Both the position numbers and the translations under genes were made by a program. Below are positions 6,313 to 42,464 of a DNA stretch of 49,245 nt, one piece after another. The stretch's first letter is position 1, and the number at the start of each line of letters is the position of its first letter. The DNA comes from a virus, in the IMG/VR virus record IMGVR_UViG_3300024346_000108, positions 1-49,245 of that record; one strand, given 5' to 3'. Under the pieces are notes generated by a model that was given only the letters and a program-made list of their open reading frames with translations, was not told where the DNA came from and did no database searches.

Positions 6313-6341
6313 ATTATACTTTATTAAAATAAAGAAGTCAA
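6313..6341 (-). promoter_or_regulatory. Near-consensus sigma-70-type promoter
   Basis: TTGACT (6336-6341) and TATAAT (6313-6318) are 17 bases apart. It lies between tRNA-Arg and the gene starting at 6290. Confidence 0.8.
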
Positions 6342-6343
6342 TG

Positions 6344-6416: not shown

Positions 6417-6422
6417 ATAAGC

Positions 6423-7053: not shown

Positions 7054-7372
7054 CTTCGTTGCCTTCCATGTCGACAAAACCGTACTCTTCCATTAATTCT
7101 TTTGCTTCTTTACTTAATTTAATCTGTGCATTAAGCTCTTCATCATATTCAACTTCTACTAAGCCTTTTTGATATAGATCTATCATGGCATCATCGATAG
7201 CTTCAGTATGCATTTGCCATAGCTCTGGAGCTAACTCCTGAGCTGAGTCTGTTATCTTGTAAATAAATTGTCCATCTTCAAGGACGCCGCTTACTTCAAC
7301 TGCACCTATCTCAATGTAATAATTCATGAGGTCTTCAAAATCCTCATCACTGAGATCAAAATCTTCGGCCAT
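7046..7372 (-). CDS. Acidic helical protein of unknown function
   Basis: The 108-residue protein is strongly acidic (FDLSDEDFEDLMNYYIEIG at the start, NEDD at the end) and mostly helical. The middle part (IDDAMIDLYQKGLVEVEYDEELNAQI) reads like a winged-helix hairpin, but I cannot assign it. GAGAAAC precedes the ATG, 11 bases after the stop of the small ORF at 7384-7482. Its charge would suit a DNA mimic or a binding partner of a basic protein; that is speculation. Confidence 0.6.
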   Translation of the reverse strand: MAEDFDLSDEDFEDLMNYYIEIGAVEVSGVLEDGQFIYKITDSAQELAPELWQMHTEAIDDAMIDLYQKGLVEVEYDEELNAQIKLSKEAKELMEEYGFVDMEGNEDD

Positions 7373-7383
7373 CGTTTCTCTTT

Positions 7384-7482
7384 CTACTTATACTGCCCAG
7401 CCTTTTCAGGCTGGGCAGCAGTAACTATTTTCCATCCCAAGGTACCTACAAGCACGTTGGCCAGGACCAAGCTGCGGATCAT
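7384..7482 (-). CDS. Possible 32-residue membrane peptide
   Basis: An ATG at 7482 opens a 32-residue frame (MIRSLVLANVLVGTLGWKIV, then TAAQPEKAGQYK) with one hydrophobic helix. It is richer in G+C than its neighbours, and its end coincides with the hairpin at 7393-7418. The ribosome site is weak. It ends 11 bases before the next gene and a TATAAT box (7503-7508) lies upstream, which fits a real short gene, but a structured RNA is an alternative. Confidence 0.4.
   Translation of the reverse strand: MIRSLVLANVLVGTLGWKIVTAAQPEKAGQYK
7393..7418 (-). terminator. Perfect 10-bp hairpin, possible terminator
   Basis: CTGCCCAGCC and GGCTGGGCAG pair perfectly around a six-base loop. No T run follows on the minus strand, so termination is uncertain. 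It overlaps the end of the small ORF 7384-7482. Confidence 0.45.
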
Positions 7483-7502
7483 CCACAAACTATGGTAATA
7501 CA

Positions 7503-7508
7503 ATTATA
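7503..7508 (-). promoter_or_regulatory. TATAAT box, possible promoter
   Basis: A perfect TATAAT lies between two short genes, 21 bases before the ATG at 7482. I see no good -35 box 16-18 bases upstream. Confidence 0.35.
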
Positions 7509-7613
7509 CTACTTCTTGTCTTTCTTCTGCTGCTTTGCTAAACGCTTTTCCTTAAGAGAGAGCTTAGGCTCTTTCTTTTTATTAGCGTTACCTTTTTGTT
7601 CTTTGTTTGCCAT
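7509..7613 (-). CDS. Short basic Lys-rich protein
   Basis: The 34-residue protein is MANKEQKGNANKKKEPKLSL followed by KEKRLAKQQKKDKK. Nearly half of the residues are basic. AAAGGAG lies five bases before the chosen ATG at 7613; another ATG just upstream is too close to that site. Similar tiny Lys-rich proteins are common in actinobacteria and their phages. Nucleic-acid binding is likely from charge alone. Confidence 0.7.
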   Translation of the reverse strand: MANKEQKGNANKKKEPKLSLKEKRLAKQQKKDKK

Positions 7614-7628
7614 CATTACTCCTTTCTG

Positions 7629-7702
7629 TGCGGCAAGTAGGACTTGAACCTACGATTACCGAATTATGAGTTCGGGGCTTTAACCAACTAAGCTATTGCC
7701 GC
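7629..7702 (-). tRNA. tRNA with CAT anticodon (elongator Met or lysidine Ile)
   Basis: The acceptor GCGGCAA/TTGCCGC, anticodon stem CCGAA/TTCGG around CTCATAA, and T loop TTCAAGT form a cloverleaf with discriminator A. A paired G1-C72 and no G-C triplet in the anticodon stem exclude initiator Met. Elongator Met and lysidine-modified Ile (reading ATA) cannot be told apart by eye. Confidence 0.9.
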
Positions 7703-24248: not shown

Positions 24249-25016
24249 TTATGCGCTAAATACCTTGCCGTCAACGACACAGGTATAGTCTTTTGTTATT
24301 TGAATTAATTGCATATGTGGATAATCATTAACAACATGTGCAATGGCAAAACCTGCTTGCCAATTCTTTTGAATTGAGTAATCCATCTTGCTTTCATCGC
24401 ACAGATGCCCAATTTCATAGCCACGAAGTTCTTGGCCAGATAAATTATATGTGTGATAGAAAGCACCCATTCTATGAGAGTGACCTCTAACTAAAGAAAC
24501 TCCCCAATTTAGTACATCTTTCTTTACGGATTCTGCAGAGTTCTGAGAGATTGCTTCACCATGATGTCCCCACATATCTCCAAAACGTTGGACTGGTGGT
24601 TCATTATAGTTGTGCCAATTAAATCCGTACTTATCATACTCATATAATGTTTTAGGGGTAATCACGTCAAGAAAAGCTGGAGCCTTCTTAGAAAGATAAT
24701 CTCCGTGTCTTGTCCATCCATGATTACCGTCATGAAAATGACAGTCAGCGTTTGGAACAATCTTACGAATATCATTCATAAATTGCTTTGTTTCATTAAC
24801 GCCACCATCTCCAACTGGAATTGAAAATTCTGTTGGATACTCAGATGCCCATCTACTGGTAGAGTCTGCATCGTCAATATCTCCTAATAGGTCTACTGCA
24901 TGTGGCTTAAACCACTTCATTACCTTAAGAAATAGTTCGACCTTGCGTGGATCATGTCTTGGAAAGTGAACGTCACTAACCATCATCCATTTAAGGTCTG
25001 ATTTTGCTTCTGTCAT
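24249..25016 (-). CDS. Calcineurin-like metallophosphoesterase
   Basis: The 255-residue protein has the full metallophosphoesterase motif set: DVH (15-17), GDIDD (45-49), GNH (about 96-98), a GHHG in the middle and GHSH (about 176-179). Two metals would be bound. Phage members include nucleases, phosphatases and RNA-modifying enzymes; the substrate here is unknown. I start at the ATG at 25016, with AGGAATACA before it; the upstream extension to 25175 has no conserved sequence and contains promoter and hairpins. It has a consensus promoter of its own, so it is likely regulated separately. Confidence 0.85.
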   Translation of the reverse strand: MTEAKSDLKWMMVSDVHFPRHDPRKVELFLKVMKWFKPHAVDLLGDIDDADSTSRWASEYPTEFSIPVGDGGVNETKQFMNDIRKIVPNADCHFHDGNHGWTRHGDYLSKKAPAFLDVITPKTLYEYDKYGFNWHNYNEPPVQRFGDMWGHHGEAISQNSAESVKKDVLNWGVSLVRGHSHRMGAFYHTYNLSGQELRGYEIGHLCDESKMDYSIQKNWQAGFAIAHVVNDYPHMQLIQITKDYTCVVDGKVFSA

Positions 25017-25029
25017 TGTATTCCTAACT

Positions 25030-25057
25030 ACGACGAATAGACGACCATTCGTCGTCT
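25030..25057 (-). promoter_or_regulatory. Leader with two mutually exclusive hairpins
   Basis: In the 5' leader of the phosphoesterase gene, a 9-base-pair stem (25030-25038 with 25047-25055) competes with a 7-base-pair stem (25039-25045 with 25051-25057), as they share 25051-25055. Both are perfect. The start codon and its ribosome site lie 13-25 bases further on. This looks like a switchable leader. Confidence 0.5.
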
Positions 25058-25064
25058 GATATAT

Positions 25065-25093
25065 ATAATAGGTTATTACCTTATTTCTGTCAA
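25065..25093 (-). promoter_or_regulatory. Promoter of the phosphoesterase gene
   Basis: TTGACA (25088-25093) and TATTAT (25065-25070) are 17 bases apart. The -35 box overlaps the end of the HNH gene at 25090. Confidence 0.75.
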
Positions 25094-25365
25094 GCAGCCT
25101 GTCGATGGGCTTTATCGTGTTGCTTTCTATAGCAAACAAACAAATTATAATAGTTATTATTTGTTTTATTTTCATCTATGTGATGAATTGTTTCGCCCTT
25201 ACTTAATATTCTATTGTAGATCTTTTCTACTACTAAAACGTGTTCGTAGTACCAGCCTCCAGAGAAGGCTTTAGGATGTTCTGGCACCCAAACTAATATA
25301 TAGCCATTTTCACTTATACTAGTTTTTCTTTGGTGCCAGCTTTGAATAGGCTGATACCACTTCAT
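25090..25365 (-). CDS. HNH endonuclease (HNH_3 type)
   Basis: The 91-residue protein has the HNH_3 layout: YYEHVLVVEKIYNRIL (39-54) with His42, GETIHHIDENKTNNNYYNL (57-75) with His61/His62, Asp64, Asn69 and Asn74, and a final QHDKAH with His83 and His87. Such small enzymes are usually mobile free-standing homing endonucleases. It sits between the tail genes and the phosphoesterase, a typical insertion place. A weak TATAAT box lies upstream (25374-25379). Confidence 0.85.
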   Translation of the reverse strand: MKWYQPIQSWHQRKTSISENGYILVWVPEHPKAFSGGWYYEHVLVVEKIYNRILSKGETIHHIDENKTNNNYYNLFVCYRKQHDKAHRQAA

Positions 25366-25958: not shown

Positions 25959-26370
25959 TTATTTCCTGACCATCCTTGTGTAAGTTAGCTTCCTGCTCAT
26001 TGACTGTAATCTTATTCTCCTCGATCCAGCCTTTAGGGAAGGCATCTGGATCCTTTATGTGGAGCCTTTTATTATCAGACACTACATATATTTTACCATC
26101 TCCAAGGTTATGGATTATTGTTCCGTCCCTAAAACCCAATATCCCTGCGTACGGTATATGAGAAATCTGTGCAAAGCTAGCGTCTATAGCCTTTACATTC
26201 CACGAACTAAAGCATCTGTCTGAAAATACTTTATATCTTTTAGAAGACTTTATATAAAATGTGCCTTTTTCTGTAATATAAAATATTCCAGAAATAGGAT
26301 AGGCTTTACCCTCAAGAGTACTAATCGTTGGCTGAAGAGATTTTTTCTTCGATTTCCTTAGAATACTCAT
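25948..26370 (-). CDS. Repeated-beta-motif protein of the tail-fibre region
   Basis: The 140-residue protein begins with a basic segment (ILRKSKKKSL) and then contains two copies of a beta-hairpin pattern: GIFYITEKGTFYIKSSKRYK and GDGKIYVVSDNKRLHIKDPD. The second type, a G-x-IY-V-x-D-x-K-x-H-I pattern, I know from beta-propeller-like virion proteins. I start at the ATG at 26370, with AGAGG before it; a longer frame to 26400 overlaps more of the gene upstream. A receptor-binding or baseplate accessory role fits. Confidence 0.58.
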   Translation of the reverse strand: MSILRKSKKKSLQPTISTLEGKAYPISGIFYITEKGTFYIKSSKRYKVFSDRCFSSWNVKAIDASFAQISHIPYAGILGFRDGTIIHNLGDGKIYVVSDNKRLHIKDPDAFPKGWIEENKITVNEQEANLHKDGQEINGN

Positions 26371-26515
26371 TAGCCTCTTTCTCTCTTTGCTCTTTTTCAT
26401 TTACTAATATAGTTATTTCTGCTCTAAGCATGGCTATCTTGGTCTCGTAGTCCGAGGCCAATTCACCAATACGCTGTTGTAGAGCGGTTATTACTAATTC
26501 CGCTTTATCTTGCAT
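26321..26515 (-). CDS. Short coiled-coil protein
   Basis: The 64-residue protein is one long amphipathic helix (ELVITALQQRIGELASDYET and further heptads, ending EEKISSAND). AGGATAAATA precedes the ATG. It overlaps the next gene by 50 bases. It may be a chaperone or a spacer for the large fibre protein. Confidence 0.6.
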   Translation of the reverse strand: MQDKAELVITALQQRIGELASDYETKIAMLRAEITILVNEKEQREKEANEYSKEIEEKISSAND

Positions 26516-26523
26516 TATTTATC

Positions 26524-26742
26524 CTATTCTGTAGCAGAGCTTACTGATACAATTTCAGCATCTAGTGTAGCCTTCTGAGAATCAATTTCATTAATTTGAT
26601 CCTGTAGGGTATCTACGACTACCTGATTTACTTTTGTACGGGCATTTTCTTCTAGGAGGCTTACCTCTAGATTATATCTTGTATAATCAAGGTTCCTCTT
26701 GTGAGATTCAATTATCTGAATCTTTTCTTCTTTTGTTAGCAT
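26524..26742 (-). CDS. Short coiled-coil protein behind a strong promoter
   Basis: The 72-residue protein is a helical coiled coil (IIESHKRNLDYTRYNLEVSL, later VVDTLQDQINEIDSQKATLD). GGAGG precedes the ATG, and a consensus promoter (26761-26790) drives it and the genes after it. It may help fold the fibre encoded just upstream. Confidence 0.62.
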   Translation of the reverse strand: MLTKEEKIQIIESHKRNLDYTRYNLEVSLLEENARTKVNQVVVDTLQDQINEIDSQKATLDAEIVSVSSATE

Positions 26743-26760: not shown

Positions 26761-26790
26761 ATTATATCAAAATGGTTCTGCTACTGTCAA
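26761..26790 (-). promoter_or_regulatory. Consensus promoter inside fibre-gene end
   Basis: TTGACA (26785-26790) and TATAAT (26761-26766) are 18 bases apart. The -35 box contains the stop codon of the large adhesin gene. Confidence 0.75.
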
Positions 26791-29729
26791 ATTGGTCCGC
26801 CGCCTGATCCACATCTACCAAAGGTTCCTACGCATGCGGCTCCAGATCCGCAGTAATCTGTATCGCAACCAGTTGATGTACATGTACCAGTTCTTCTGTC
26901 TGTTGTAGTACATGTTGTTCCATTTGTAGCGGTGAACACAGGTGGTGCGGTGAATACAGGTGGTGCGGTGAATACAGGTGGAGCGGTGAACACAGGTGGA
27001 GCGGTGAACACAGGTGGAGCGGTAAATACAGGTGGAGCGGTGAATACAGGTGGAGCGGTGAACACAGGCGGTGCTGTGAACACAGGTGGTGCTGTGAACA
27101 CAGGTGGTACAGCAGACTGTTGATTTGCTGCAGTTATTCTTTCAGCATATCCTTGATCGGCATTTCCTGAAGTTAAAGCAGCAACGTCCAAAAATGAACC
27201 TTGTGCTATTTCTGTAAATGCAATTCCACTTGTTATTGCACTTCCATCAAATGGAATTCTCATAGTTGTTCCAGCAGTAAGAAGGTTTGCTGCTCTTCCA
27301 GAACCCTGCAACAATCCACCATTATAAAGTCCAGCAGCATTTGTTGCGGATCTTCCATTTGTGTTAATTATTATTTTTGCATCAGCATATGCTTGATTAG
27401 TATAAAATTTTATTTGGAATCTAAGCTGTGTTTGAACATCAACAGATCCAGTTCCAACATAAGAGTATCCTGTATACTGCAAAACAAAGGTGTCGGCATT
27501 AGACCAATATTTTGTAAATCCAGAAATATAAGTTGTATTGCCACCAGTGTTTTGTTGATTGTCGGCATTAAATACAGATATAGCTCTTCCAGAAGTAACT
27601 GTTACGTTATCAGAAGAATACGATGCCTTTGCACTTTCATCTAAGCCAACATATCCATTTGTTGACATGTATAACCTATTGCCAAATGCAAAGGTATAGG
27701 AGCCAGATAAGGTTGTTGAAGTTGCTGTTGCTTGACCCATATCATAGGTAACTCCAGTAGCGTATTGATATCTTGGAGTTGCATATAGGGTATATGTTGT
27801 TCCAGCTGCTAGTCCATCATAGACTAATGTGTTAGAAGACCCTACTGTTGCAGTTACAACCTTTGGGTATCCTGCAGGCCTTGTACTTCCAGTTAATGCA
27901 TCTAAAACTATATGTGTCATAGAAGACCCAGATGGAGTTGTCGTCATGGATATTGAATTTGCTGTTCTTGTGCTTAAAGTTAAAGCACTTAATGACATTG
28001 CGTCTGATCCATTTAGTGTTTTTGTTCCAAAGGGTAGGGAGGTAGGGGTGAGTCCAGTTTTATTTGCTCCGCTATAAGGAATAAGTATTGCTGTATATCC
28101 AGTGTTAGTATAAGAAGCCCCAGTTAAATTTAACAAATATGCCGTGGAGGAAGATGTATTTACATATCCGTTAATATTGTCTGCAATTGGGACTCCGCCA
28201 GAAAACGATTCTAGGTCGTACTCTCCGTATACAGAAGCAGTGTCTGTACCTGTTGTAAAAAATAAAGTACCCTGACCAGAAACAAAAGACTTCATAATTC
28301 TGTTTGTTGGAGTTGTTGGCATTTTTGGGGTTGTGTGTGATACGGCAGAGCTTGCAACACTCTGATACCCATCATCATTGTTTGCCCTTATTTTTATATT
28401 ATATGTTGTATCTGCAGCAACGCCGTAGATTTTTACATTGCTGGACGTAAAGTTTGTAGTGTTTGTCCAACTTGTTCCGTTATTTAATGAGTAGTCAAAA
28501 GATATTATTGCATTGCTTCCAGGGCTTGTTAGAGTGTATGCAACATTTAACTGTAGACCGTTTGCAATGTCTGAAGTTGAAGTTATTCCAGTTATAGTTG
28601 GCACACTAGGACTAGATCCTAGGGCTCCAACATATATAAAACTTGAAGAAGTTCCACCATTTGAATAAGTATATAGACTTCCAGCTTTTGCACGACCTGT
28701 TACACGATAATCATTATATTGATTACTTACTGAAAATGTTTTGGTAGTTTCACTACTTGTTGCAGTATATCCAGTCCATGATGTTCCAAGTGACGTACCA
28801 GCGGTTAAGAATCCGTCTTGACTTCCCTCGAATCTGAACTCGTAGCTAGCTGCTCCTTCTGAAGCTCCCCATGTTACTGTTATATTTCTTGTTGAGACTC
28901 CTGGGTATCCTAACTCTGCAGAAGCTATATTAAAGGCTCCTGGTTGGGTAGATACAGTATCTGAATATGCAGAGTATGCTGGATTACTATCGCCAGCTGA
29001 AGATTTTGCTATAACCTTTGCACGTACCTGCTTTCCAGAATCAGCAGAACTAAATGTATAGGTACTTGAATTGCTTGTGTTGGCAGCTGCTGTGCCATCC
29101 AAATATTCCCAAGAATAGGTATACGTTGCTGCATCTAGTGTTGGATCGTTTGGAAATCCTGGAGCAATGTTATATGTAACTCCACCAACAGTTGTTGTGT
29201 TATTCCAATAGGTAGATCCTTCTGCTGTAACAGTTATGGATCCAGTTGTAGAGGCCGTTCCAGTTAAAAGAAATGCTGTTGCTGTTCTTGTTGGAGCACG
29301 ATATTTTGTCACAAGAATTCTATTTGAATTTACTTGATTGCTACCGCTTGCGTTTGTTGCGGTAACTCTAACAAGAATATATCTGTTATCGTCGGCAGTT
29401 ACTGAAGTGTATGTTAGTCCAGTCGCTCCAGATATTGTGGTTCCACCTGCTGTTAATGATGTTGCCCTTTGCCACACTCTGGTATAAGATGTAGGCGAAT
29501 TAGACCATGTTCCATTATCAACTGTAAATAATGATCCTAAGTATCCATCACCAGTTAATTCTGGATTTGTTATAATGCCTGGTATCTTTAATCCAGAAAA
29601 TACTTTTACCCATGTTCCAGCAACACGTTGCCATACAGTAAGTATTTCTGTCCATGTACCACCAGTTCTTTGATAAACAGATTTAACTTCGGTCCATGTT
29701 CCCTTGACACGCTGATATATCTTAGGCAT
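26787..29729 (-). CDS. Large tail adhesin with FnIII-like domains, PPVFTA repeats and Cys-rich end
   Basis: The 980-residue protein starts with tandem short W-motifs (YQRVKGTWTEVKSVYQRTGG; GTWTEI; VAGTWVKVF) that occur at the start of phage minor tail proteins. It continues through several beta-sandwich and fibronectin-III-like domains (about 50-860). Then come ten exact PPVFTA repeats encoded by an 18-base tandem array (26928-27107), and finally about 45 residues with six Cys and many Thr/Gly. The rigid Pro-rich stalk plus a disulfide- or metal-linked tip suggests an exposed host-binding fibre. It lies after the tail hub genes, where receptor-binding proteins are normally found. Repeat number could vary between strains. 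Confidence 0.78.
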   Translation of the reverse strand: MPKIYQRVKGTWTEVKSVYQRTGGTWTEILTVWQRVAGTWVKVFSGLKIPGIITNPELTGDGYLGSLFTVDNGTWSNSPTSYTRVWQRATSLTAGGTTISGATGLTYTSVTADDNRYILVRVTATNASGSNQVNSNRILVTKYRAPTRTATAFLLTGTASTTGSITVTAEGSTYWNNTTTVGGVTYNIAPGFPNDPTLDAATYTYSWEYLDGTAAANTSNSSTYTFSSADSGKQVRAKVIAKSSAGDSNPAYSAYSDTVSTQPGAFNIASAELGYPGVSTRNITVTWGASEGAASYEFRFEGSQDGFLTAGTSLGTSWTGYTATSSETTKTFSVSNQYNDYRVTGRAKAGSLYTYSNGGTSSSFIYVGALGSSPSVPTITGITSTSDIANGLQLNVAYTLTSPGSNAIISFDYSLNNGTSWTNTTNFTSSNVKIYGVAADTTYNIKIRANNDDGYQSVASSAVSHTTPKMPTTPTNRIMKSFVSGQGTLFFTTGTDTASVYGEYDLESFSGGVPIADNINGYVNTSSSTAYLLNLTGASYTNTGYTAILIPYSGANKTGLTPTSLPFGTKTLNGSDAMSLSALTLSTRTANSISMTTTPSGSSMTHIVLDALTGSTRPAGYPKVVTATVGSSNTLVYDGLAAGTTYTLYATPRYQYATGVTYDMGQATATSTTLSGSYTFAFGNRLYMSTNGYVGLDESAKASYSSDNVTVTSGRAISVFNADNQQNTGGNTTYISGFTKYWSNADTFVLQYTGYSYVGTGSVDVQTQLRFQIKFYTNQAYADAKIIINTNGRSATNAAGLYNGGLLQGSGRAANLLTAGTTMRIPFDGSAITSGIAFTEIAQGSFLDVAALTSGNADQGYAERITAANQQSAVPPVFTAPPVFTAPPVFTAPPVFTAPPVFTAPPVFTAPPVFTAPPVFTAPPVFTAPPVFTATNGTTCTTTDRRTGTCTSTGCDTDYCGSGAACVGTFGRCGSGGGPI
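26928..27107 (-). repeat. Ten tandem 18-base repeats encoding PPVFTA
   Basis: The array is in frame inside the large adhesin gene. Copies differ only in a few silent positions (for example GTG-to-GTA changes), so the protein repeats are identical while the DNA has begun to drift. The plus strand also has an open frame here (NTGGAV repeats), but this is a by-product. Confidence 0.95.
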
Positions 29730-29737
29730 TGTTTTTC

Positions 29738-32179
29738 CTAAACTGTGCTAAAGTAAAAGTCTCCATTTACTGTACCACCTAACGTTCCTGCTGTTTCTGT
29801 TGCTATTGCAGATGCTGTTGCTGCTGAGCCAGAAAAAAACTTAGGCCCTAAAAGCTGTGATCCGTCTGGAAACAAACCTAGCGTTCTGTAACTATTGTAT
29901 TGACCTAAACCAGTAGTAATATCTGCCCCAGTTGGTCCCCAAATTTTAGATGATATATATGATGTCCCACCTTGAACAACATAATAGTTTTTCCAATTTA
30001 CTCCGTTAACTCCAGAAGCTGTAAAATAAATTTGATTTAACTCATTTTGAATACCATAGCTTGATGCTGCTGTAGTATATGTAGAACTTGCATTGGCTTT
30101 AACATATACTGATCCTGGCCACAATTCAGTTTTTAATAAATCTGTTGCAACTGACATATGTGCACTACTAAATGAAAATAAGCTATCACCACTATTTGTA
30201 TATATAGACATCCTGCCATCGTATCCAACAGTTGTAGTGTTTGTAAGACTAAATCCTGGCAAAAACTCTGTCGTGGACGTTGCTTTGAATCCACTATTAT
30301 TAATAGTAATTGTTCCATCTGTACTACTTCTTTGAAATATTGCACCATTAATTACACCAGTAGATCCATCTAGATAAATTTGATTGTTTGCTGAGCCATT
30401 TGCATATGATTCTATTCTTGCTCCATTAATGCTCCAACCATTTACAAGGAGGCCATCTGAGTTTAATGTACCAAAACCACCAACTCCAGCATTTACAGTT
30501 CCGCTGATTACGGCTTGAGTTGCTTTCATCTGTCCGCTAAAGTTAACGCTAAATGGCGCTGTAGCTAATGTTGTTCCACCTATCCACACACCTCTAGTAT
30601 TATTTGTTCCAGCTGAATGAGCTGGTTGAATGTACATAGCGTTTGATCCAGAACCAACTTTAAATACATTTGTTGTTGCTGTTGATCCAAGATCTATTGT
30701 TACGTTTCCACTTAGGTCCGCCGAAAATACTGGGCTTGAAGTTGTTCCAGAAGGATATATTGTTAAGCCAGGAGTTATATTTTTTGTTCCACCACTAGGT
30801 ATAAAACTAGATGTATTAGAGGATAGCTCAATTCTTGCAGAGTTTTCATCTGCACCAGCTCTTAGCCATGAAGTAAACTTACCGTTTCCAGCTACTAAGT
30901 TTTCAATAGATATTATTCCAGACGTTAAATCTATAAAATTTGCTTTAGCTGGATTTCCAGAACCAAGCTTTGTGTATGTTACAAGGTTGCCGACTTTGTA
31001 GAATTCATTGTTAAGATTGAGTGCGACATAATAAAAATATATTGGTGAGGTATAGACAGTATCTGAGCCCAACCCAGTTGCCTGTCTAAGAGCATCTATT
31101 CCAATAGTTACTTTATTAGATGTTTTATTTACAGCCATATTTCCAACTAGCTTAGATGATATGTCTGATGTCGTTGAGGCTCCTAAGTCTGATGCTGAGG
31201 CATAAATATTTATACCAGCAAAGCCGTCAAAGTCTGTTCCACCACTATAGCTTCCGCCCCAAGATACTGTGACTCCAAAAGGTGCTGCCGCAACAGAAAG
31301 TCCTGTTGGTAGTGTCGGTGCCTCTATTTGTGCAGCTGGTTGCTGAAGTACTGTTACCTGATTTGAAGCGCTAGAAGATCTTGATCTAGAAAATTTATCT
31401 CTTGCTATTAAGTATGCTTGAATTATTGTTCCGCCGCTATATCTGATAGACATTTTGTGCCCTGAGAATCCAGCAGGAACTGACCCAGTATAAACTGGAG
31501 TAAATGTACCAACCTTAACAGAGTTTATATATATATCTACAGCCTCAATATTTGGAGAATAGTATGTAGATGGAGTTGCTGAATTTTTTCCGTCCCAAGT
31601 AACTTCTACCGACTCTACTCCTGCTACTAAAGTTGGTGTAGAAGGTGGAATTAAAAGGCCATTGATGTCGCTATCGTCCGACAAAACAACATCTATGAAA
31701 ACCGCTGCTGATTTGTTACCACTATTATCAATTACTTTAACTGAAAACCTAATTGTCGATACAAAAGTATTTGCAAATATTCCAAGAACTTCTGCGTTTG
31801 TTAGAGTATAGCTTGTTGCTTCAGAGGTAAATACTTTTGTTTGAGATTTTGCTCCTGTAGAGTCAGATATTGTAATCTCATGAGTTTTTGCATCTTTTGA
31901 TGTTGATTTTGTCCAAGAAAATATAAAGCTACCCAGGCTTGGCTTTGCAGACAATCCAGTAATTGGATTTGGTGCTGAAGTGTCTAATAGATTATTGAAT
32001 TCAATAAAAGGTGATCTTAAACCATAGTTTATAGAGTCTGCTTCACCCTTTACTATGTATCTAAATGTAAGCTGCTCTTTGGCTCCAGCCGCTCTATTCT
32101 TAACCTTTATTATCTTAAAAGATTGCTGATCTTCGGTATTAGCGACTTTAGAGTCTAGTACAAAGTCGGGGCCTGGCAT
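29738..32179 (-). CDS. Tail fibre-like protein with FnIII-type domains
   Basis: The 813-residue protein has a beta-rich N-terminus (PGPDFVLDSKVANTEDQQSF), several fibronectin-like sandwiches (for example SAPNPITGLSAKPSLGSFIF and PTLPTGLSVAAAPFGVTVSW) and a C-terminal stretch with repeated short beta turns (TGVINGAIFQRSSTDGTITI) typical of tail fibre or trimeric shaft regions. The end is Ala/Thr/Gly-rich (ATASAIATETAGTLGG). It overlaps the gene upstream by one base and precedes the adhesin by eight. Receptor binding or tail tip structure is inferred. Confidence 0.75.
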   Translation of the reverse strand: MPGPDFVLDSKVANTEDQQSFKIIKVKNRAAGAKEQLTFRYIVKGEADSINYGLRSPFIEFNNLLDTSAPNPITGLSAKPSLGSFIFSWTKSTSKDAKTHEITISDSTGAKSQTKVFTSEATSYTLTNAEVLGIFANTFVSTIRFSVKVIDNSGNKSAAVFIDVVLSDDSDINGLLIPPSTPTLVAGVESVEVTWDGKNSATPSTYYSPNIEAVDIYINSVKVGTFTPVYTGSVPAGFSGHKMSIRYSGGTIIQAYLIARDKFSRSRSSSASNQVTVLQQPAAQIEAPTLPTGLSVAAAPFGVTVSWGGSYSGGTDFDGFAGINIYASASDLGASTTSDISSKLVGNMAVNKTSNKVTIGIDALRQATGLGSDTVYTSPIYFYYVALNLNNEFYKVGNLVTYTKLGSGNPAKANFIDLTSGIISIENLVAGNGKFTSWLRAGADENSARIELSSNTSSFIPSGGTKNITPGLTIYPSGTTSSPVFSADLSGNVTIDLGSTATTNVFKVGSGSNAMYIQPAHSAGTNNTRGVWIGGTTLATAPFSVNFSGQMKATQAVISGTVNAGVGGFGTLNSDGLLVNGWSINGARIESYANGSANNQIYLDGSTGVINGAIFQRSSTDGTITINNSGFKATSTTEFLPGFSLTNTTTVGYDGRMSIYTNSGDSLFSFSSAHMSVATDLLKTELWPGSVYVKANASSTYTTAASSYGIQNELNQIYFTASGVNGVNWKNYYVVQGGTSYISSKIWGPTGADITTGLGQYNSYRTLGLFPDGSQLLGPKFFSGSAATASAIATETAGTLGGTVNGDFYFSTV

Positions 32180-33514: not shown

Positions 33515-36500
33515 TTAAGCCAAATAAATCGAACGTAGTGCTACTGAGGTTGAAAGACCATTTTCAAACTCATGTTTTACCGCTCTGACTAAATATCTTT
33601 CTGTTCCAGTATATCCTAGGTCTGGGTGCTTAACGGCCACAACATCTCCAACATCAATAATAGGATTACCAAAAACCTTAAGGTTTACCTCGATATTATT
33701 CTTTGACCAAAACTTGGACAGGAAGTCTGCCAGCTTTTGTACAGACTCTTTTGTCTGAAGCCACTGAGTCTCTATATTAATTATTTGATTAGATTCGTTA
33801 TTTGTATCTCTTATCTCAACAAAGTTTTGACCAGCATTTGCTATTGATACTCCATATATTGCCAATGTATCTCCAGATGATGTTGATAAAGGTATTGTTG
33901 CAGAAGATGTATTTAACACAAAGAACTCTCCTCTAAATGCAGAAAGTCTGCTTGCTACTACTTTTGCCAATCTATTTGTTGGCTCAATTAAAACTGGATA
34001 GGCTTGCTTATAATCTGTTTGTCCACGATACAGCTCACGTATTACATCTCCGAATTCTGTATAGTAGAACTGGCTAGATACAGTATCTGAGTAGTTAAAC
34101 TTTTCAAAGAAAGCCTTGGCTATAAGTTGGCCTCTTGACCTTGATGAAATAAAATCTGGCTTAAATTCTGATCTTGCACCAGAATAAAAATAATCATAAT
34201 ATGCTGTAGATTGTCCACCTACAATAACTCCTACCACAGAAGTATTTGGAATTGGATCTACAGTATCATCTAGCTGAATTGTTGCCCCATTAATAAACAA
34301 AAGAACTGTATTCTTTCCAGTCTCTCTTTTTATTAGAACATCTATTCCATAGAATCCAGACTCAAATATATTTGACTCCAGCGCCTGCGTTTTAACAACT
34401 AGTCCCCCAACAACTTTATGAAGAGCAACCTCTGTCTTATCATTTGAATTTTGCACTGATTTGGTTGATGATACGTGGATTAAGTATCCTGTTTGAGTTG
34501 ATGGGTTCCAAGAAACTACCATTCCGCCAGCCTGCTGAACCCCAGTAGATGTTGTATTGTTAAGATCAAATGCTATCGCTGTTCCAACTTGAGCTATTGC
34601 AGCATCTGCGTGAGATAGCTGCTTCGAAACAATATACAGGTCATCTTTTGATGTTGATGCAGAAAGCTTAAGTGCTGATATATTTGAGCTTCTAGCGGCT
34701 GATCCAACCAAATAATTTATTGTTGATGCTGTTGTTCCAGCCTTATTTAAAGATATCTTATTTGCATTCCAAGAGCTCATCTCTGAGGCTATATTATTGT
34801 TTGGAGTAGCGTTTGTTGCAGATGTCCCAAAAAGCTGTCTCTGGAATGTTCCGTCTGTATTCTTTTTAATTCTCAGCTTTCCAGTTTGTTTAACACTGTA
34901 TGAATGCTTTGCGTATATATCTAGATAGTCGCCATATGATGTAACGTCAATCACTCCAGATGGTGTGCTATATTGAATTGCATCATACTCAATTATTTCT
35001 CCGCCCAACAAAACGTATGAGTTATGTCTGGTTGGAGTAGTCATTGAAAACACTCCAGTATTTGCATACTTAATATACTGGTTTGATCCAGAAGTTTCTA
35101 TTCCCATATATGGGCCAGCAAATAAGGTTGAGGGGGCTGGTTCAGTCCATAGTGGCTGTGAGTCTGCCATCTGAGAACTTCTTAGCGGAATATTGTAAGT
35201 AAGCTTTACGTCACTTAGTCCAGGATTTATTTCAGACTCTAGCTCAATAATATCTGGCTGCTTTGTACCATCTTGGTCATAGTTGAATGTCCATGCTGCT
35301 GATGTTTGATTTTGAAAATATGTTCTATCAAAAAACTTTAATACTCCAGATGCATCAAAGTATGCTACCACTTGAGCTTCACGGCAAAGGTCCTGGAGTG
35401 TTTGCCAGACGGTTCTTGTCTTGTCTCCCCACCAATATAGAGAAGTAAATATGTCAGATTGACAACTTGAAAAGTCATAGTTATTAAAGCCAGCAGCATC
35501 TAGCATTCTCCAAACAATGCTCTGGAATGGTGCATCTTTAATGATAATCTCTGGGCAGTTAACTTCCTGTAGGAACTTGGCACCATCAAGGCATGTTAAT
35601 GAGAAATTGTCATAGTTATTTTCTTTTACTGTTGCTATGTAATACACGCCCTGTTGTATTAAGTAGCTAGAATTATCATTGATCAAGAATGAGACTGTGC
35701 ACTTTACGTCTTTTCCAAGCATCACCTTGTCTGATACTATTGCATCGCCTTTTATAAACTTAACCATGTCATTCTTTTGTATCGAAGATAGCTCAAGGCT
35801 TGCTGAATTAGCAGTAAGCATTCCAACTGGCAGAATGCTTTCTTTTGTAGAGTCGTCTTTATCTAGTGAGACTGATATTATTCTATCGCTTATATCTAAT
35901 ACATATCTAGGTGAAACTTCAATTATTCCAGCATATCCGCCTGAAGTTACAGATACTGTAACCGATGATGCTGTATCTGGGGTGCCAGCCGCTGTATGTG
36001 ATGTAGACCATGTTGTTCCGTTATATAAAACTTCAATCAATCCGTTTGCTGGTGGTGTAGAGTTATAAACAGTCTTTCCATTAAACCCAACGTTAATCGT
36101 TGGGCTAGAGTGACCAGTTTCTACCTTGATTACAAACTTATTGGCTATAATGTTTTGAGCAGCGTCAGATTTGTTTTTATAAGAAATAGTTAGGCTGGCA
36201 TTCCCATTTGTAAGAAAATACTTATATATGTTATTTAGATCTGGGATATAGTTTTTAACTGTAGCAACATTCTTGTCGTTATATACTGTTGTTCCTACTT
36301 TATTGTTATATATTGCTTGAGGAGCATTTTCTCCAAGCATGTAGTATTTGATGCCAGCCTTTGATGGTCGATATTGCTTTACTATTGAAGAGGCTGGAAA
36401 TATCTTTTTTGTTATATCTGTTGCTGGCCATGTATTTGGGGTTACCACAACAGAGTAGGCCATGTCATTCATGTTATATTCAAGGACAGCTTTAGGTACA

Positions 36501-36559
36501 GCCTTGACTGAAGTACTTTCAGAAAGGGTTGTTATAAGTGCTGAGTTTGAACTAAGCAT
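33515..36559 (-). CDS. Tail hub / minor tail protein
   Basis: The 1,014-residue protein follows the distal tail gene. Its N-terminal third is beta-rich, then about 365-395 reads WWGDKTRTVWQTLQDLCREA and VVAYFDASGVLKFFDRTYF, the conserved hub segment of tail-tip proteins related to gp27-type or siphophage Tal proteins. The middle holds a jelly-roll-like insertion, and the last part includes LADFLSKFWSKNNIEVNLKV, then VVAVKHPDLGYTGTERYLVR, also a hub feature. It would form the central ring that connects tail tube and fibres. Confidence 0.8.
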   Translation of the reverse strand: MLSSNSALITTLSESTSVKAVPKAVLEYNMNDMAYSVVVTPNTWPATDITKKIFPASSIVKQYRPSKAGIKYYMLGENAPQAIYNNKVGTTVYNDKNVATVKNYIPDLNNIYKYFLTNGNASLTISYKNKSDAAQNIIANKFVIKVETGHSSPTINVGFNGKTVYNSTPPANGLIEVLYNGTTWSTSHTAAGTPDTASSVTVSVTSGGYAGIIEVSPRYVLDISDRIISVSLDKDDSTKESILPVGMLTANSASLELSSIQKNDMVKFIKGDAIVSDKVMLGKDVKCTVSFLINDNSSYLIQQGVYYIATVKENNYDNFSLTCLDGAKFLQEVNCPEIIIKDAPFQSIVWRMLDAAGFNNYDFSSCQSDIFTSLYWWGDKTRTVWQTLQDLCREAQVVAYFDASGVLKFFDRTYFQNQTSAAWTFNYDQDGTKQPDIIELESEINPGLSDVKLTYNIPLRSSQMADSQPLWTEPAPSTLFAGPYMGIETSGSNQYIKYANTGVFSMTTPTRHNSYVLLGGEIIEYDAIQYSTPSGVIDVTSYGDYLDIYAKHSYSVKQTGKLRIKKNTDGTFQRQLFGTSATNATPNNNIASEMSSWNANKISLNKAGTTASTINYLVGSAARSSNISALKLSASTSKDDLYIVSKQLSHADAAIAQVGTAIAFDLNNTTSTGVQQAGGMVVSWNPSTQTGYLIHVSSTKSVQNSNDKTEVALHKVVGGLVVKTQALESNIFESGFYGIDVLIKRETGKNTVLLFINGATIQLDDTVDPIPNTSVVGVIVGGQSTAYYDYFYSGARSEFKPDFISSRSRGQLIAKAFFEKFNYSDTVSSQFYYTEFGDVIRELYRGQTDYKQAYPVLIEPTNRLAKVVASRLSAFRGEFFVLNTSSATIPLSTSSGDTLAIYGVSIANAGQNFVEIRDTNNESNQIINIETQWLQTKESVQKLADFLSKFWSKNNIEVNLKVFGNPIIDVGDVVAVKHPDLGYTGTERYLVRAVKHEFENGLSTSVALRSIYLA

Positions 36560-36990
36560 TATACCTCTGTCATTTCTATTGATAAATTATAAAAAGTATC
36601 TATTCCACGCTTAACTATTGTGGATTCAAATTGAGAGAATATTACTGTGTATGGACCATTATATGTCCCATCTGCTTTTTTAATTCTTATTTTAAACGAC
36701 CCTTTTCCAAGGTCTGACGCAAAGAATGTCTTTAGGTTATCTACTGACCACGCTGTATCAACTAGGTGTGTTTGAGCTCCAGGAACAAACTGCCAAGAAG
36801 TGCTGAATGTCTTCTTGTCTGCAACATAGTACTTTCTTAGTGTTCCATTAGCCATACGCTTAACATCTTCAATTCTCTCGTTAGCTTCTTCAAGAGGCTC
36901 TCTATTATGTTCTGTAACTTTATTCCATGTTCCGACTGGAGACTCAATCTCAAGGATTGATCCCTTTGGAAGAGTTATTTTAATTGGCAT
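36559..36990 (-). CDS. Distal tail protein
   Basis: The 143-residue protein is a beta-rich single domain (YYVADKKTFSTSWQFVPGAQ about 54-73, then FKIRIKKADGTYNGPYTVIF). It directly follows the tape measure gene and precedes the hub, overlapping each by one base, which is the classic place of the distal tail (Dit-like) protein that forms the ring at the end of the tube. Confidence 0.7.
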   Translation of the reverse strand: MPIKITLPKGSILEIESPVGTWNKVTEHNREPLEEANERIEDVKRMANGTLRKYYVADKKTFSTSWQFVPGAQTHLVDTAWSVDNLKTFFASDLGKGSFKIRIKKADGTYNGPYTVIFSQFESTIVKRGIDTFYNLSIEMTEV

Positions 36991-39900
36991 TATGCGTACC
37001 TAGTCTCCCCTACTCTTTGATTCATCAACTTCATCTTAGCCTCAATTGCATTAGCTATCTGGTTAGGATCTGCATTTGTAGCAACATTTACATTAATGTA
37101 GTAGTTGCATTCTTCGCCGTTCATAGATGAACCTGTTGTCATTGATCTTACCGCAGTCATAAGTCTATCTGAAGATACTACGTTTCCATTCATATTTGGA
37201 ATGAATAGCTCTGGACCAACTTCTCCGACTAGATATGGCATCGCTACCTTACCCATTCCTCCATTACCACGAGCCTGTATCTTGTAGTTCTTCTTAACCA
37301 TTCCACCCATTTGTCTTGGCATAACTTCGCTTGCCTTATAACCATTTGAGGTAAGGAATGCTTCAACTCTATCCTTTGTTATCTTTGTGTCTGTTCCATA
37401 GGGGTCAATTCTGTAAACTTTATTATCGCCCTTCTTTGAGAACTCAACATAGTCATAACCGTCTTTGCTCTTAACACTAAATGTTCCAAAGCTTGTGGAA
37501 AGCTTATTCACAGAGTTGCTTATTTGATCTGGATTTACACTTACTCCACCGCCTGGAATTCCAAACATTTCTGCAATAGTTGTTACATCTTTATATCTTG
37601 TTACAGTTCCACGACCCTTAGCTCCAGGAGTTTTGTATGCCTGCTGAATCTTTCCGTTCTGAACTCTATAATCTGGACCAAGTAGCGTTGCAAGGCTGTC
37701 ACCAAATGCTTTTCCAAACGACTCCATTGTCTTAGTCATAAAGGCGCTGAAGCTTGTTCCAAGAACATCGATCTTGTTTCCAGTTTTACCTAGAAGTTCT
37801 TCTAGCTGCTTGTAAGCAGATAAACTTCCGCTTGCTGCTTCTTCAAACAACTTTCTAAATGTTGAAGCTGACTCAGTAGCATCCTGTCTATATTTTGCAA
37901 TTGTCTTATTGTGCTTTTCAATAAGCTTATTATACCGATCTTCAATAGATTTCTTTTGCTCATCTGTAAGATCCTTGATTGCCTTCTTTTCTTCTTCAAG
38001 CATCTTAAGCTTATCTTCATGAAGCTTAATTTCTCTTTCAGCCTTTTGATCAATTGCATCCTCTGCAAGATCGACTGATCTATCACGCATCTTCTTTTCT
38101 ATGTCTAGGCCAACCATGGCTGCTTCAGCTAGGTTTCCAGTCATCAATGCAACATCTTGTTGCAATCTCATCTTATTGAGATCTGCTTCAAAGTCTGCGG
38201 ATTCTTGCTGTGCTCTTAAGGCTTCCTTTCTAGCACTAGCCTGTTCCTTAATAGCATCAATTGTTTCTCTTTCAGCTTCGATCTGCTTATCTAGAGCTTC
38301 TCTTCTTCTGTCAGCCGCTTCTAACTCATTCTTCATTCTCTTACGTAATGCTGAGATTGAATTATTTTCACCCTGAATTAGCTTGTCGTAATACTTCTGC
38401 AATCCGCTTTGCATGTATGCCTGAGATGCAACAACATTCATTGCATTTTGAGCAGCAATATCAAACTGTCCTGCTACTCCAGATAATGAGCTTGTAAGTC
38501 CCATAGAGTTAGCAGCAGCCATCTGAATTGCCGCAGCTAGATTTCCTGCTCTTTCCCATGCATCATATAGTTCTGGATTTGTTGCTTGAATTGAAGCCAA
38601 TAGCTTTTGTCCAGCTGTTGTAGCCTGAAGTGACTCTATAGTAAGACCCTTCATATTTTCTGGCAAATAGTTAATTACGTTATCTAAGTCTTCAAATGTT
38701 TTTATCTGATTAATTGCAGATGCAGAAAGAAGATCTAGTTGAGAACTAAATCTTTCCCCAAGTGCCTGACTGATGGATCCGCCATCTGTAAGCTTCTTTG
38801 AAATTTCATCAAATGTCTTCTGAGCTGCATTCATTAGCTGATCCATTGCCTGATCTTTATTTGTTATTCCTGCAATGTCTAGCAATACTGGAATAGAAAA
38901 TTCTTCTTGTCCAGCCTGCTCAAATATAGATGCTATAACTGTAGAAGCTGCTTTTTGATCTACGCCTTGTGCTACAAGTGTAGACTTTAGATTTCTTGCA
39001 AACTCTAGGGCCTGTTCTTTTGTATCTATACCCTTAGCTCTTGAAATCTGATCTTTAAATAGCTTCTTTACCTGCTCTTCGACTTTAGCTATCTCATCTG
39101 GACTTGGAAGTCCTGGGACTCCTTGAGCCTGCTTTTGATCTATAAGCTGCTTTGCTAAAGCCTTGCTTGTTTCTACATAAGTCTTAAACTTTGATGCTGC
39201 TGTTAATGCTGCTCCGCCAAATTCATTGAGTGCTTCTTCTGAAACAGAAACATCTGCTCTTGCTTTTCTTAATGATTCTGCATACATGTCATTAAGCTTT
39301 TTAATTCCAAATGCCAGTGCTGTAACAACACCTATTGCTATCATTCCAGGACCTGTTCCCAAGAATGAAAGTGCTGCTCCTAATCTTCCAACCATTCCGC
39401 CAGCCTTCATAAGGCTTCCGCCAACACCCTTAAGGCCCATACCTAAACCTTGAATTGCTGGCACTGCAAATCCTAGTGTCATAGCAAAGTTGGCCATATT
39501 GGAAGCCATTTGGTTTGTTGTACCAGTCATTCCCATCAACATATTTGCTGCTAATCCTGCAGAACCAACTGCGGCACCCATTGTTCCAGCAAATTTTGCT
39601 GCAGACTTTGCAGACTGTCTAATATTCTTTTCTGTTTTTGCTACGGACTTCTCTACATTTTTTACTGGCTCTTCTGCTGCAGCAAATGCTGCGGCTGCTT
39701 GAACTTGTGTGCCCACAGCTCCGCCTGCTGTTGGTACAGCTGTAGGAGCAGCTCTTCTAGAGCTTACAACTCTTCTTTCATCAATTAGCTTTTGAATATC
39801 TTTCTTATCTGCTATTGGAATATCTTTTGCTAGAGGAACAGTTTCTTTAGCTTTCTTATATCTAGCAGCACGTTCTCTAAATGACTTCTTCTTTCCGCCT

Positions 39901-42464
39901 GCAGCCTTATAGTCTTCATTTAAGAGGTCTTCGGCAACAACCATTGCCATCATACCTTCTCTTGTCATTAAATAGTCTTGATCTGGTGCTGATCCAATTA
40001 CTTCATTAAACTTTCCTGGCATAGGAACTGGACCAGCAGATGTTTGAGACTTTCTTAATCTTTCTGCTTCTGCTGGAGACTTACCACTTGCAATAGCTCT
40101 ATCATAAAGTTCTTTTTCTAAACGTGCTTTTTCAACAGGATCTATGTGTCCGCCTTGTGCTGTAAATAATGAGAAATTTCCAGCGCCTGTTTCTTCTCTA
40201 TACATTCCAGAAACCATCATGGACTCATCCATCAGTCCAAGTGCAGATAGGCCTGCACCTGCATAAGGCATTAACTCTGCAGATGCTCTGTTTGTTGCAA
40301 GGCCTTTGTCTTGGACATTTCTTTGGAATCCCTTGACTCTTTCTCTAAGGTATGCGTCTGCTTCTTCTGGAGACATTCCAGACAACATAGCCTGAAGCTC
40401 TTCTTTCTTAGTTAGAGCTCTTTGATTTAATGGATCTACATCTGCTCTATAGTCAGCAAATGCTTGAGATGTTGGGATTGCCCCACCTGACATTCCGCCA
40501 CCTGTTGGAACTATACCTCCGCCAGTTGGAATCATTCCTCCACCAGTTGGAGGTGGTGGACCTCCAGCGCCAGCTATTGCAACATCTTGATACGCCATAG
40601 CAAGCTTTTCTAAAGATGCTCGTAAAACATCTGCTGCTTGAGCTTGATTGTATGTAGACTGTGTATATGCATCTGCAACCTGATCTGCAGCAACAGTTGC
40701 TGTTGTGATTAATTCAAATGCTCCAGCGCCAGAACGAAGTTGTCTAAACGCCGCAACACCCTTAATTATGTAACCAATAAAGTTACCCATCAGACCAGTT
40801 AACATAATTAGCGGTCCAAGTATTGCTGTGATTCCAGCCAAACCAGTTAGAAGCATCTTAAATGGCTTTGGCATTTTTTCAAATAAGCTTAAAGCCTTTG
40901 CTCCAACATCCAATATATTTGTAAATATAGCTAAGAATGGCTGACCAAATTCTGCTAATGCAGCCTTAAATGTTTCTAGAGATCTCTTATATCTTCCAGA
41001 AGCTGACTCTGTTAAAAGCTTTAATTCTCGATCAGCAGTTGCAGCTAAATCTTGAGTTGAAGCATTCATTAAGTCTAATACTTGAAGTGACTGACTTCCT
41101 TCACGACCAATGTTATTTAGAAGTGCACCAATACGTGCAAACTGATACTTACCGAATAGTGATTCGATTGCCTGTTGTTTTTGTAGTGGGTCTAACTTAT
41201 CTAAAGCTTTTTGCAAATCCATGACAAGACCCACAAGATCTCCAGCATTTGAATTTACTATTTCACTAACATTAATACCGAAGCCTGCAAGTCTTTCTGT
41301 TGCATTCTTTGAAGGGTTAATCAAAGATCCAAGTCCTGACTTAAGTGCGTTTGCACCTTCTGCTGCGTTAATTCCACCTTCACGCATTGCTGTTAGGAAT
41401 AAAGCAAGTGTCTTTACATCTCCGCCAAGACCCTTGATAACTGGACCAGCTTTAGGAATCGCTTCCACCAGATCTTGAAGTGTTGTTGAAGTTTGGTTTT
41501 CAACTGAGTTAAGGAAGTCAATTGATTGTGTAAGTTCAACAGTATTTAATTTAAATGCTGACTGAAGTGCAAGTGTTGCCTTCATTGCTTCTTGACGATC
41601 AACTTCACCAAGAGTTGCAAGTCTTGTTGTTTCTGCTGTTGCAGCCAAAAGGTCGTTTCCTTCTGCACCAGTTGCAGCAATATCTGCTGCTAAAGCTAGT
41701 GTTTCTTCAAAAGATGATCCATATGTAGATGCCAAAGTTTTTGCCAACTCTGTAACATTCATTCTTACTTTTTCTAGTTCCGCAGTTGATGTTTGGCCTA
41801 TACCGCCATAAACCTTAGCTAGTCTAGTTAATTCTGCGTCTGCTCTTCTGAATGCCTCCGATGCATTCTTTCCAAACAGCATGATTGGCAAAGTAAGACC
41901 TACAGTTAGCTGTCTACCTGCCCATTGAGTATTCTTACCCCAGTTAATTAAAGATGTAGCTCCATCACGCAACACTTTATTGAATATCATTGTTTGCTGT
42001 GCGCCAACTTTTGCTGAATTAGCTAGGTTATCAATTCCTGTAGGAGTAATTACTAATGCCTTTTGAGCACCGCTCATGTCTCTTCCAAGAGACTTTACTA
42101 CAGACTGACTTACTCTTACTTGCTCTTCAGCAAGAGCACGAATTTGACCAGATGCAGATCTTCTAAAATCTGCATATGCTTTGTAATATTCTTTTAACTT
42201 AAGATTTTGTTTTGTAAGAGCTTTACCAAACTGCTCTGTAGAAGAAGTTACATTTACTATCTGAGAAGAAAATTGTCCGCTTGCCGTGACTAGATCACGG
42301 AAATTCATTACAGCAGCATCAAAATCTTTTTTATTTAGATTTAAGTTTCCAAGTAGTTGTGTATTTCTAAACTTAGAAAGCTGTGCCATGGCACGATTAA
42401 CTTCAGCAATAAGAGGACCGAAGTCTCCATCAGCCCTAAAATTGAGATTAACCATATCAGCCAT
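36990..42464 (-). CDS. Tail tape measure protein
   Basis: The 1,824-residue protein is the longest of the window. It has a helical N-terminus, the PhageMin_Tail-type core (about 170-420, including ARVYGG-like LTRLAKVYGGIGQTSTAELE), hydrophobic segments near 540-570 and again near 960-1060, a PTGGGM-type repeated linker near 640-660, and a long charged coiled coil (about 1360-1500). These are the marks of a tape measure protein that sets tail length and helps DNA pass the membrane. By the common rule of about 1.5 angstrom per residue the tail would be roughly 270 nm; that is only an estimate. The start lies four bases after the chaperone stop. Confidence 0.95.
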   Translation of the reverse strand: MADMVNLNFRADGDFGPLIAEVNRAMAQLSKFRNTQLLGNLNLNKKDFDAAVMNFRDLVTASGQFSSQIVNVTSSTEQFGKALTKQNLKLKEYYKAYADFRRSASGQIRALAEEQVRVSQSVVKSLGRDMSGAQKALVITPTGIDNLANSAKVGAQQTMIFNKVLRDGATSLINWGKNTQWAGRQLTVGLTLPIMLFGKNASEAFRRADAELTRLAKVYGGIGQTSTAELEKVRMNVTELAKTLASTYGSSFEETLALAADIAATGAEGNDLLAATAETTRLATLGEVDRQEAMKATLALQSAFKLNTVELTQSIDFLNSVENQTSTTLQDLVEAIPKAGPVIKGLGGDVKTLALFLTAMREGGINAAEGANALKSGLGSLINPSKNATERLAGFGINVSEIVNSNAGDLVGLVMDLQKALDKLDPLQKQQAIESLFGKYQFARIGALLNNIGREGSQSLQVLDLMNASTQDLAATADRELKLLTESASGRYKRSLETFKAALAEFGQPFLAIFTNILDVGAKALSLFEKMPKPFKMLLTGLAGITAILGPLIMLTGLMGNFIGYIIKGVAAFRQLRSGAGAFELITTATVAADQVADAYTQSTYNQAQAADVLRASLEKLAMAYQDVAIAGAGGPPPPTGGGMIPTGGGIVPTGGGMSGGAIPTSQAFADYRADVDPLNQRALTKKEELQAMLSGMSPEEADAYLRERVKGFQRNVQDKGLATNRASAELMPYAGAGLSALGLMDESMMVSGMYREETGAGNFSLFTAQGGHIDPVEKARLEKELYDRAIASGKSPAEAERLRKSQTSAGPVPMPGKFNEVIGSAPDQDYLMTREGMMAMVVAEDLLNEDYKAAGGKKKSFRERAARYKKAKETVPLAKDIPIADKKDIQKLIDERRVVSSRRAAPTAVPTAGGAVGTQVQAAAAFAAAEEPVKNVEKSVAKTEKNIRQSAKSAAKFAGTMGAAVGSAGLAANMLMGMTGTTNQMASNMANFAMTLGFAVPAIQGLGMGLKGVGGSLMKAGGMVGRLGAALSFLGTGPGMIAIGVVTALAFGIKKLNDMYAESLRKARADVSVSEEALNEFGGAALTAASKFKTYVETSKALAKQLIDQKQAQGVPGLPSPDEIAKVEEQVKKLFKDQISRAKGIDTKEQALEFARNLKSTLVAQGVDQKAASTVIASIFEQAGQEEFSIPVLLDIAGITNKDQAMDQLMNAAQKTFDEISKKLTDGGSISQALGERFSSQLDLLSASAINQIKTFEDLDNVINYLPENMKGLTIESLQATTAGQKLLASIQATNPELYDAWERAGNLAAAIQMAAANSMGLTSSLSGVAGQFDIAAQNAMNVVASQAYMQSGLQKYYDKLIQGENNSISALRKRMKNELEAADRRREALDKQIEAERETIDAIKEQASARKEALRAQQESADFEADLNKMRLQQDVALMTGNLAEAAMVGLDIEKKMRDRSVDLAEDAIDQKAEREIKLHEDKLKMLEEEKKAIKDLTDEQKKSIEDRYNKLIEKHNKTIAKYRQDATESASTFRKLFEEAASGSLSAYKQLEELLGKTGNKIDVLGTSFSAFMTKTMESFGKAFGDSLATLLGPDYRVQNGKIQQAYKTPGAKGRGTVTRYKDVTTIAEMFGIPGGGVSVNPDQISNSVNKLSTSFGTFSVKSKDGYDYVEFSKKGDNKVYRIDPYGTDTKITKDRVEAFLTSNGYKASEVMPRQMGGMVKKNYKIQARGNGGMGKVAMPYLVGEVGPELFIPNMNGNVVSSDRLMTAVRSMTTGSSMNGEECNYYINVNVATNADPNQIANAIEAKMKLMNQRVGETRYA

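Follow-up and report, generated by a model that had tools for sequence, protein, structure and literature searches.

A candidate exchangeable adhesion cassette, a proline-rich stalk with a six-cysteine tip, at the end of a distal tail fibre of an uncultured phage

The distal tail-fibre gene P0001 of the uncultured virus IMGVR_UViG_3300024346_000108 ends in ten PPVFTA units followed by a short tip with six cysteines, and on balance we favor reading this end as an exchangeable adhesion cassette consisting of a stalk and a disulfide knob. The window, i.e., the whole stretch of DNA analyzed here, covers 49,245 nucleotides of that record (positions 1 to 49,245). A preliminary description of the window had proposed an adhesin-like fibre that bears a stalk of repeats and a cysteine tip, and this is borne out by the reading frame, which holds exactly ten units and six tip cysteines, by its place in the tail module and by its anatomy (Table 1). 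In the arrangement proposed here, an N-terminal anchor and beta-rich domains would form the fibre body, the proline-rich stalk would extend from it, and a small disulfide-stabilized knob would cap the stalk, where contact with the host surface is most likely. The two would be exchanged among phages as a cassette, with the knob kept by selection, its cysteine spacing fixed, and the stalk beneath it freely replaced, lengthened and homogenized. In relatives, oxygenases and glycosyltransferases encoded by the phage may also act on the stalk. The knob is presumably exposed at the distal end and its job would be host adhesion, although a knob at the C-terminus might have a role in assembly instead.

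Table 1. Features of the fibre gene P0001 and neighboring tail genes in the window.
Feature	Coordinates	Strand	Basis
Distal tail-fibre gene P0001, 980 aa, with stalk and tip	26787..29729	-	ATG-started open frame; gene order
N-terminal anchor, three GTW-type repeats, aa 1-50	29580..29729	-	Common to syntenic fibres of relatives
Shaft region, aa 47-480	28290..29591	-	Homologous in L016, L027, L060, L037
Pre-stalk conserved domain, aa 676-872, YxFAFGNxLYVSTNGY	27114..27704	-	Alignments A1/A2
Junction ITAANQQSAV	27108..27137	-	L036 counterpart ITAANQQAAV (alignment A1)
Stalk, ten PPVFTA units, aa 875-934	26928..27107	-	TRF array; codon analysis
Six-cysteine tip, aa 935-980, 46 residues	26790..26927	-	Tip family alignment A3
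P0002, adjacent upstream tail protein	29738..32179	-	Gene order; syntenic in relatives
P0006, minor tail/hub protein	33515..36559	-	phrog_10359, E 8.9e-66; Streptomyces phage homologues
P0007, tape measure protein	36990..42464	-	phrog_10030, E 3.1e-121; actinophage homologues

The tail module runs from the tape measure P0007 through the hub protein P0006, two small genes and P0002 to P0001, its last large gene, which places the fibre downstream of phrog_10030 and phrog_10359 proteins in an actinophage tail module. P0006 and P0007 were closest to proteins of large Streptomyces phages, so we regard the phage, whose window has a GC content of 39%, as being of the actinophage type; judging from the similarity of its tail genes to those of Streptomyces and Gordonia phages, its host is probably a water-dwelling actinobacterium. 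A search with P0006 returned 64 loci, 63 of them on contigs other than a twin assembly of the same phage, and many of these carried a fibre with the GTW N-terminus in the gene-order slot that P0001 occupies. The anchor matched such fibres with phmmer E-values down to 9e-10 (L013, L005, L020, L016 and others) and the shaft those listed in Table 1 with E-values of 1.6e-22 to 7e-16; a Pfam search with the shaft gave no match. The pre-stalk domain was found in six relatives at 28–36% identity. Its AlphaFold model is largely beta (block-wise pLDDT about 49–92), and Foldseek returned no match for it in PDB or BFVD at E ≤ 0.001; a nidogen-like (“NIDO-like”) label had been a by-eye impression, with neither a Pfam nor a Foldseek match behind it, and was dropped. 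Most fibres at the P0001 position in relatives end in beta-type domains and have no cysteines there, but L036, L019, L039, L040, L057/L058 and L059 have fibres whose last parts are a low-complexity stalk and a cysteine tip. The syntenic fibre of L039 (18737-21865) has 24 cysteines and Thr-Ala stalks. Elsewhere in the window, on the minus strand, a metallophosphoesterase gene (24249-25175; phrog_221, E 4.7e-59) lies between the tail and replication genes, and five tRNA genes (Asp, Gly, Asn, Arg, Met) lie in the non-structural part (4574-7702).

The stalk is encoded by 18-base units with 92% matches and a TRF score of 276, compared with 73 for the next-best array in the 49 kb. All ten copies are identical at the amino acid level, and the five variable positions of the 18 in the DNA unit are all silent third codon positions, a pattern with p = 7e-4 if all sites were equally variable; for five substitutions placed at random, the chance that none changes the protein is p = 2e-3. 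This supports the earlier suggestion of selection on the protein. Codon usage also sets the stalk apart from the rest of P0001: TTC encodes Phe in 9/10 units vs. 4/28 elsewhere, and ACC encodes Thr in 8/10 units vs. 18/140 elsewhere. Such a pattern is to be expected if a single seed unit was amplified, and it supports the recent expansion of the repeat that had been proposed. Tandem arrays do arise by slippage, and in-frame units need not harm the protein, yet a repeat that is nothing but functionless, neutral slippage at a gene end is very hard to reconcile with ten copies that differ only silently and with a tip behind them that is conserved across phages.

An assembly error in the array, an earlier concern, is unlikely since the second assembly of this phage (IMGVR_UViG_3300008996_000033), which differs at 5 positions in 14,940 bases, with no gaps and no mismatch in stalk or tip, again has ten copies. 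It had also been suggested that copy number could change by slippage and might thereby tune the reach or specificity of the fibre; as to the change itself, the evidence is divided. The window phage has ten units in both assemblies, which may come from one water body, but one-unit shifts were seen in relatives: L118 has exactly one unit (PPGFFG) more than L093, to which it is about 93% identical in DNA, and 24 units in L126 compare with 25 in L141 (about 95% identity), in both cases with flanks that align at unchanged length. Most near-identical pairs of relatives had equal unit numbers. Between L099 and L126, in which the PASTA part is nearly identical, the units were homogenized within each protein (PPPVFTT/PPPVFTP vs. 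PPVFTA). Taken together, the differences between these three pairs show that gain, loss and homogenization of units occur at a modest rate in the relatives.

The six tip cysteines are the only ones in the whole P0001 protein and follow the spacing C-x9-C-x4-C-x4-C-x5-C-x6-C, with the motif GCDxxxCGSGAAC. Comparison of the tip among relatives had been suggested as a check; a scan for PPxF arrays followed by a scan for the tip itself recovered a family of ten distinct sequences, the window and nine more, with one common cysteine spacing (C-x9-C-x4-C-x4-C-x5-C-x6..10-C with GCDxxxC[GA][ST]GAxC). The window tip is 33–69% identical to the other members and aligns with most of them without internal gaps through the sixth cysteine. 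Invariant cysteines occupy alignment columns 9, 19, 24, 29, and 35, and the GCD and GA motifs are kept. All members carry the tip at the extreme C-terminus, which in the window lies directly behind the low-complexity stalk. Between the tips of the window and L126, which are 69% identical, 16 codon changes are silent and 15 replace a residue, so the sharing of the tip is not very recent.

None of the ten members matched Pfam at E ≤ 10, the tip had no match in PDB at E ≤ 10 and none in cultured phages, and it did not fall within known small cysteine-rich domains (EGF, hevein-type chitin binding and the like). Structure prediction gave nothing usable (with AlphaFold, the tip had a pLDDT of 45 and the stalk one of about 50 or lower), nor did Foldseek searches of PDB and BFVD with models of the tip and of the domain, stalk and tip together. 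The tip DNA pattern had 15 matches in 84,980 species (host) genomes, which were rejected as chance: the frames read were short or belonged to an unrelated long cysteine-rich protein (L196), none had a stalk, and the best profile score was 17.5 bits (E 0.004) vs. at least 63 bits for true members.

The preliminary description had considered six cysteines unusual for a phage fibre. This view has to be given up, as a stalk plus an even number of cysteines also forms the end of 20 or more further proteins from uncultured phages. Counted in and outside of the family, 21/21 stalk-borne tips have 4, 6 or 8 cysteines, and family members that gain a cysteine beside the second one also gain one at the C-terminus. 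The even counts and the paired gain favor disulfides, and we infer that the tip cysteines form disulfides rather than bind metal, although an even count would be compatible with metal too. That the six cysteines hold a metal ion or an iron-sulfur cluster would suit a short tip on a fibre made in the reducing cytoplasm, and some of the other tips have just four cysteines; against the paired gain, the range of counts and the lack of a match to any metal-binding family, we consider this improbable.

The same tip was found on three types of stalk: (PPVFTA)n in the window, L099 and L126/L141, (PPSFFA)n in L140 and L185-L187, and Thr/Ala-Pro stalks in L177, L179, L181, and L184. The backbones that carry it are also unrelated, with three PASTA domains in L126 (E 1.1e-19) and none in P0001 according to Pfam. 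Conversely, L036 shares the pre-stalk domain and the junction ITAANQQxAV with the window and then continues into PPFFPPYFV units and another cysteine tip, so the stalk is replaceable at a fixed boundary. As other uncultured phages carry the knob on quite different fibres and stalks, it would seem to be an exchangeable host-gripping tip. Both modular tips of fibres and stalks of low complexity have precedents in kind; in the incomplete library available to us, we found no paper on stalks or tips such as these, on exchange of the tip or on a linkage between stalks and oxygenases.

In all tip carriers other than the window phage and its twin assembly, the next gene after the tip gene encodes a conserved partner of approximately 145 aa. 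Examples are L126:6822-7226, L179:7903-8349, and L185:2564-2998 (sequence MLTDSSILYVRGNDGINGVALVWVIDGECLYDIPTW...); the partner belongs to no known family. Cultured phages gave no match to it, nor to the stalk proteins of L126, L187, and L118. Fibre chaperone genes often directly follow fibre genes, and the tip might thus be an assembly element, a trimerization cap or docking end for a chaperone encoded by the partner gene, with the stalk as a spacer. The constant position of the partner speaks for such a role. However, the window has the tip but no partner gene in its 49 kb, and the partner also stands behind cysteine fibres of other kinds (L159, L039), and we therefore rate an assembly function as unlikely, if less so than metal binding. 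A primase and an HTH protein in the window gave weak partner HMM matches (E 0.001–0.01) and were rejected, as was P0003 as a partner homologue (E about 1). Directly downstream of P0001, two small open frames of 72 and 64 aa (26321-26742, minus strand), coiled-coil-like by eye, bear no likeness to the partner.

The stalks may also be substrates, i.e., hydroxylated, glycosylated or cross-linked together with the tip before assembly, as in collagen or Skp1, by phage-encoded prolyl-hydroxylase-like oxygenases and in part by GlcNAc transferases and radical SAM/SPASM proteins. Among 46 contigs of P0006 relatives, PF13640 2OG-Fe(II) oxygenases were present in 13/13 contigs with a PPxF array (5–14 each) vs. 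7/33 without one (Fisher p = 8e-7), and PF11397 glycosyltransferases, the family to which we take the Skp1 GlcNAc transferase to belong, were present in 12/21 contigs with a cysteine tip vs. 2/21 controls (p = 0.0025); both p-values overstate independence because the contigs are related to one another. Two of the seven array-less oxygenase contigs have aromatic-proline stalks of other spacing. Where coordinates were listed for stalk contigs, the nearest oxygenase gene lay 0.4–2.1 kb downstream of the stalk on the same strand. The PPxF array in the P0006 relatives is mostly in a separate gene and not in the fibre. The highest number of oxygenase matches in a single phage contig was 14, in L062.

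Among 68 genes downstream of cysteine-tip fibres there were 11 PF13640 and 9 PF11397 matches, compared with 3 and 2 among 68 genes downstream of control fibres. Behind the partner, L126 encodes 2OG-Fe(II) oxygenases and DUF6065 proteins, L179 and L177 encode radical SAM/SPASM proteins and PF11397 GlcNAc transferases, and L039 has a radical SAM/SPASM gene; the radical SAM/SPASM proteins of these last three are distantly like peptide maturases. Enzyme genes beside stalks lie at L126:7444-10109, L150:1056-2679, L179:8612-10521, and L039:22625-23632. The L126 oxygenase belongs to phrog_61 (PF13640) and is weakly like a prolyl 4-hydroxylase in PDB (E 0.002), and a survey reported that PHROG 61-type phage oxygenases resemble the human prolyl hydroxylase EGLN3 (PMC12774648).

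Several observations weigh against the stalk as a substrate. PF13640 was not significantly more common in cysteine-tip contigs than in fibre controls (14/21 vs. 10/21, p = 0.35), and stalks and oxygenase arrays may merely share a cargo region. The window has the hexapeptide PPxFxx array in ten units, but no oxygenase gene just downstream, and neither PF13640 and PF11397 nor radical SAM proteins were matched in its contig, a fragment of 49 kb where several relatives exceed 100 kb. For the relatives, the substrate reading extends the cassette reading rather than opposing it, and we hold it as a tentative alternative with a clearly better chance than an assembly role. From the gene content at hand, enzymatic modification of the stalk is a serious possibility in the relatives and just possible in the window phage. 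A broader proposal, that aquatic phages use enzymes of their own to hydroxylate and partly glycosylate or cross-link adhesion stalks of proline/aromatic hexapeptides, as a phage counterpart to the maturation of collagen or Skp1, with some of these stalks capped by exchangeable disulfide knobs, and that the window fibre carries such a cassette, is slightly more speculative still.

A further type of stalk end was observed apart from the cysteine tips. In many cases a PPxFF stalk runs straight into a cysteine that opens an apparent Hint/intein-type domain (CIPADTEVLTTDGYKKAKDI...), which would point to self-cleavage where the stalk stops. These include L118:6701-8383 (plus strand), L093, L097, L103, L108, L113, L122, L135, L143, L151, L156, L157, L165, and L062:17442-20570. 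The Hint-like domain had no Pfam match in L118 or L135, and the L062 fibre weakly matched Hom_end_hint (E 1.2e-5).

Very little is known of how phages of abundant freshwater actinobacteria recognize their hosts, and a small conserved knob that moves between phages on interchangeable stalks offers a concrete candidate for receptor binding. Similarly, the linkage of PPxF stalks with oxygenases suggests a function that could be tested for the numerous 2OG-Fe(II) oxygenases of aquatic phages, most of which have no known substrate. Among known systems, the tail module most resembles that of large Streptomyces siphophages (Coruscant, Faust, Karp, Blueeyedbeauty, and relatives), with about 24% identity over the full length of P0006 and 31–35% identity in the N-terminal third of the tape measure P0007. 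Unlike these genes, P0001 has no real match in cultured phages, actinophages included, and the tip is absent from them. Phage collagen-like fibres share with the window fibre a proline-rich, low-complexity tail-fibre stalk and, as far as the window’s relatives are concerned, possible prolyl hydroxylation, but PPVFTA lacks the Gly at every third residue of Gly-X-Y repeats and P0001 has no collagen match in Pfam. In the maturation of Skp1 in Dictyostelium and Toxoplasma, a prolyl hydroxylase acts first and a GlcNAc transferase then acts on the hydroxyproline (PMC9485057, PMC11570480). The pairing of PF13640-type oxygenases with PF11397 transferases near stalk and cysteine-tip genes is reminiscent of this sequence, although here the evidence is one of gene neighborhood in the relatives, neither enzyme type having been found in the 49-kb window. 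Lastly, PASTA-domain or Fn3-type surface proteins on aquatic viral contigs (L126, L140, L185) share the tip with P0001, on a PPVFTA or PPSFFA stalk, but differ from it in their backbone and in the partner and enzyme genes that adjoin them.
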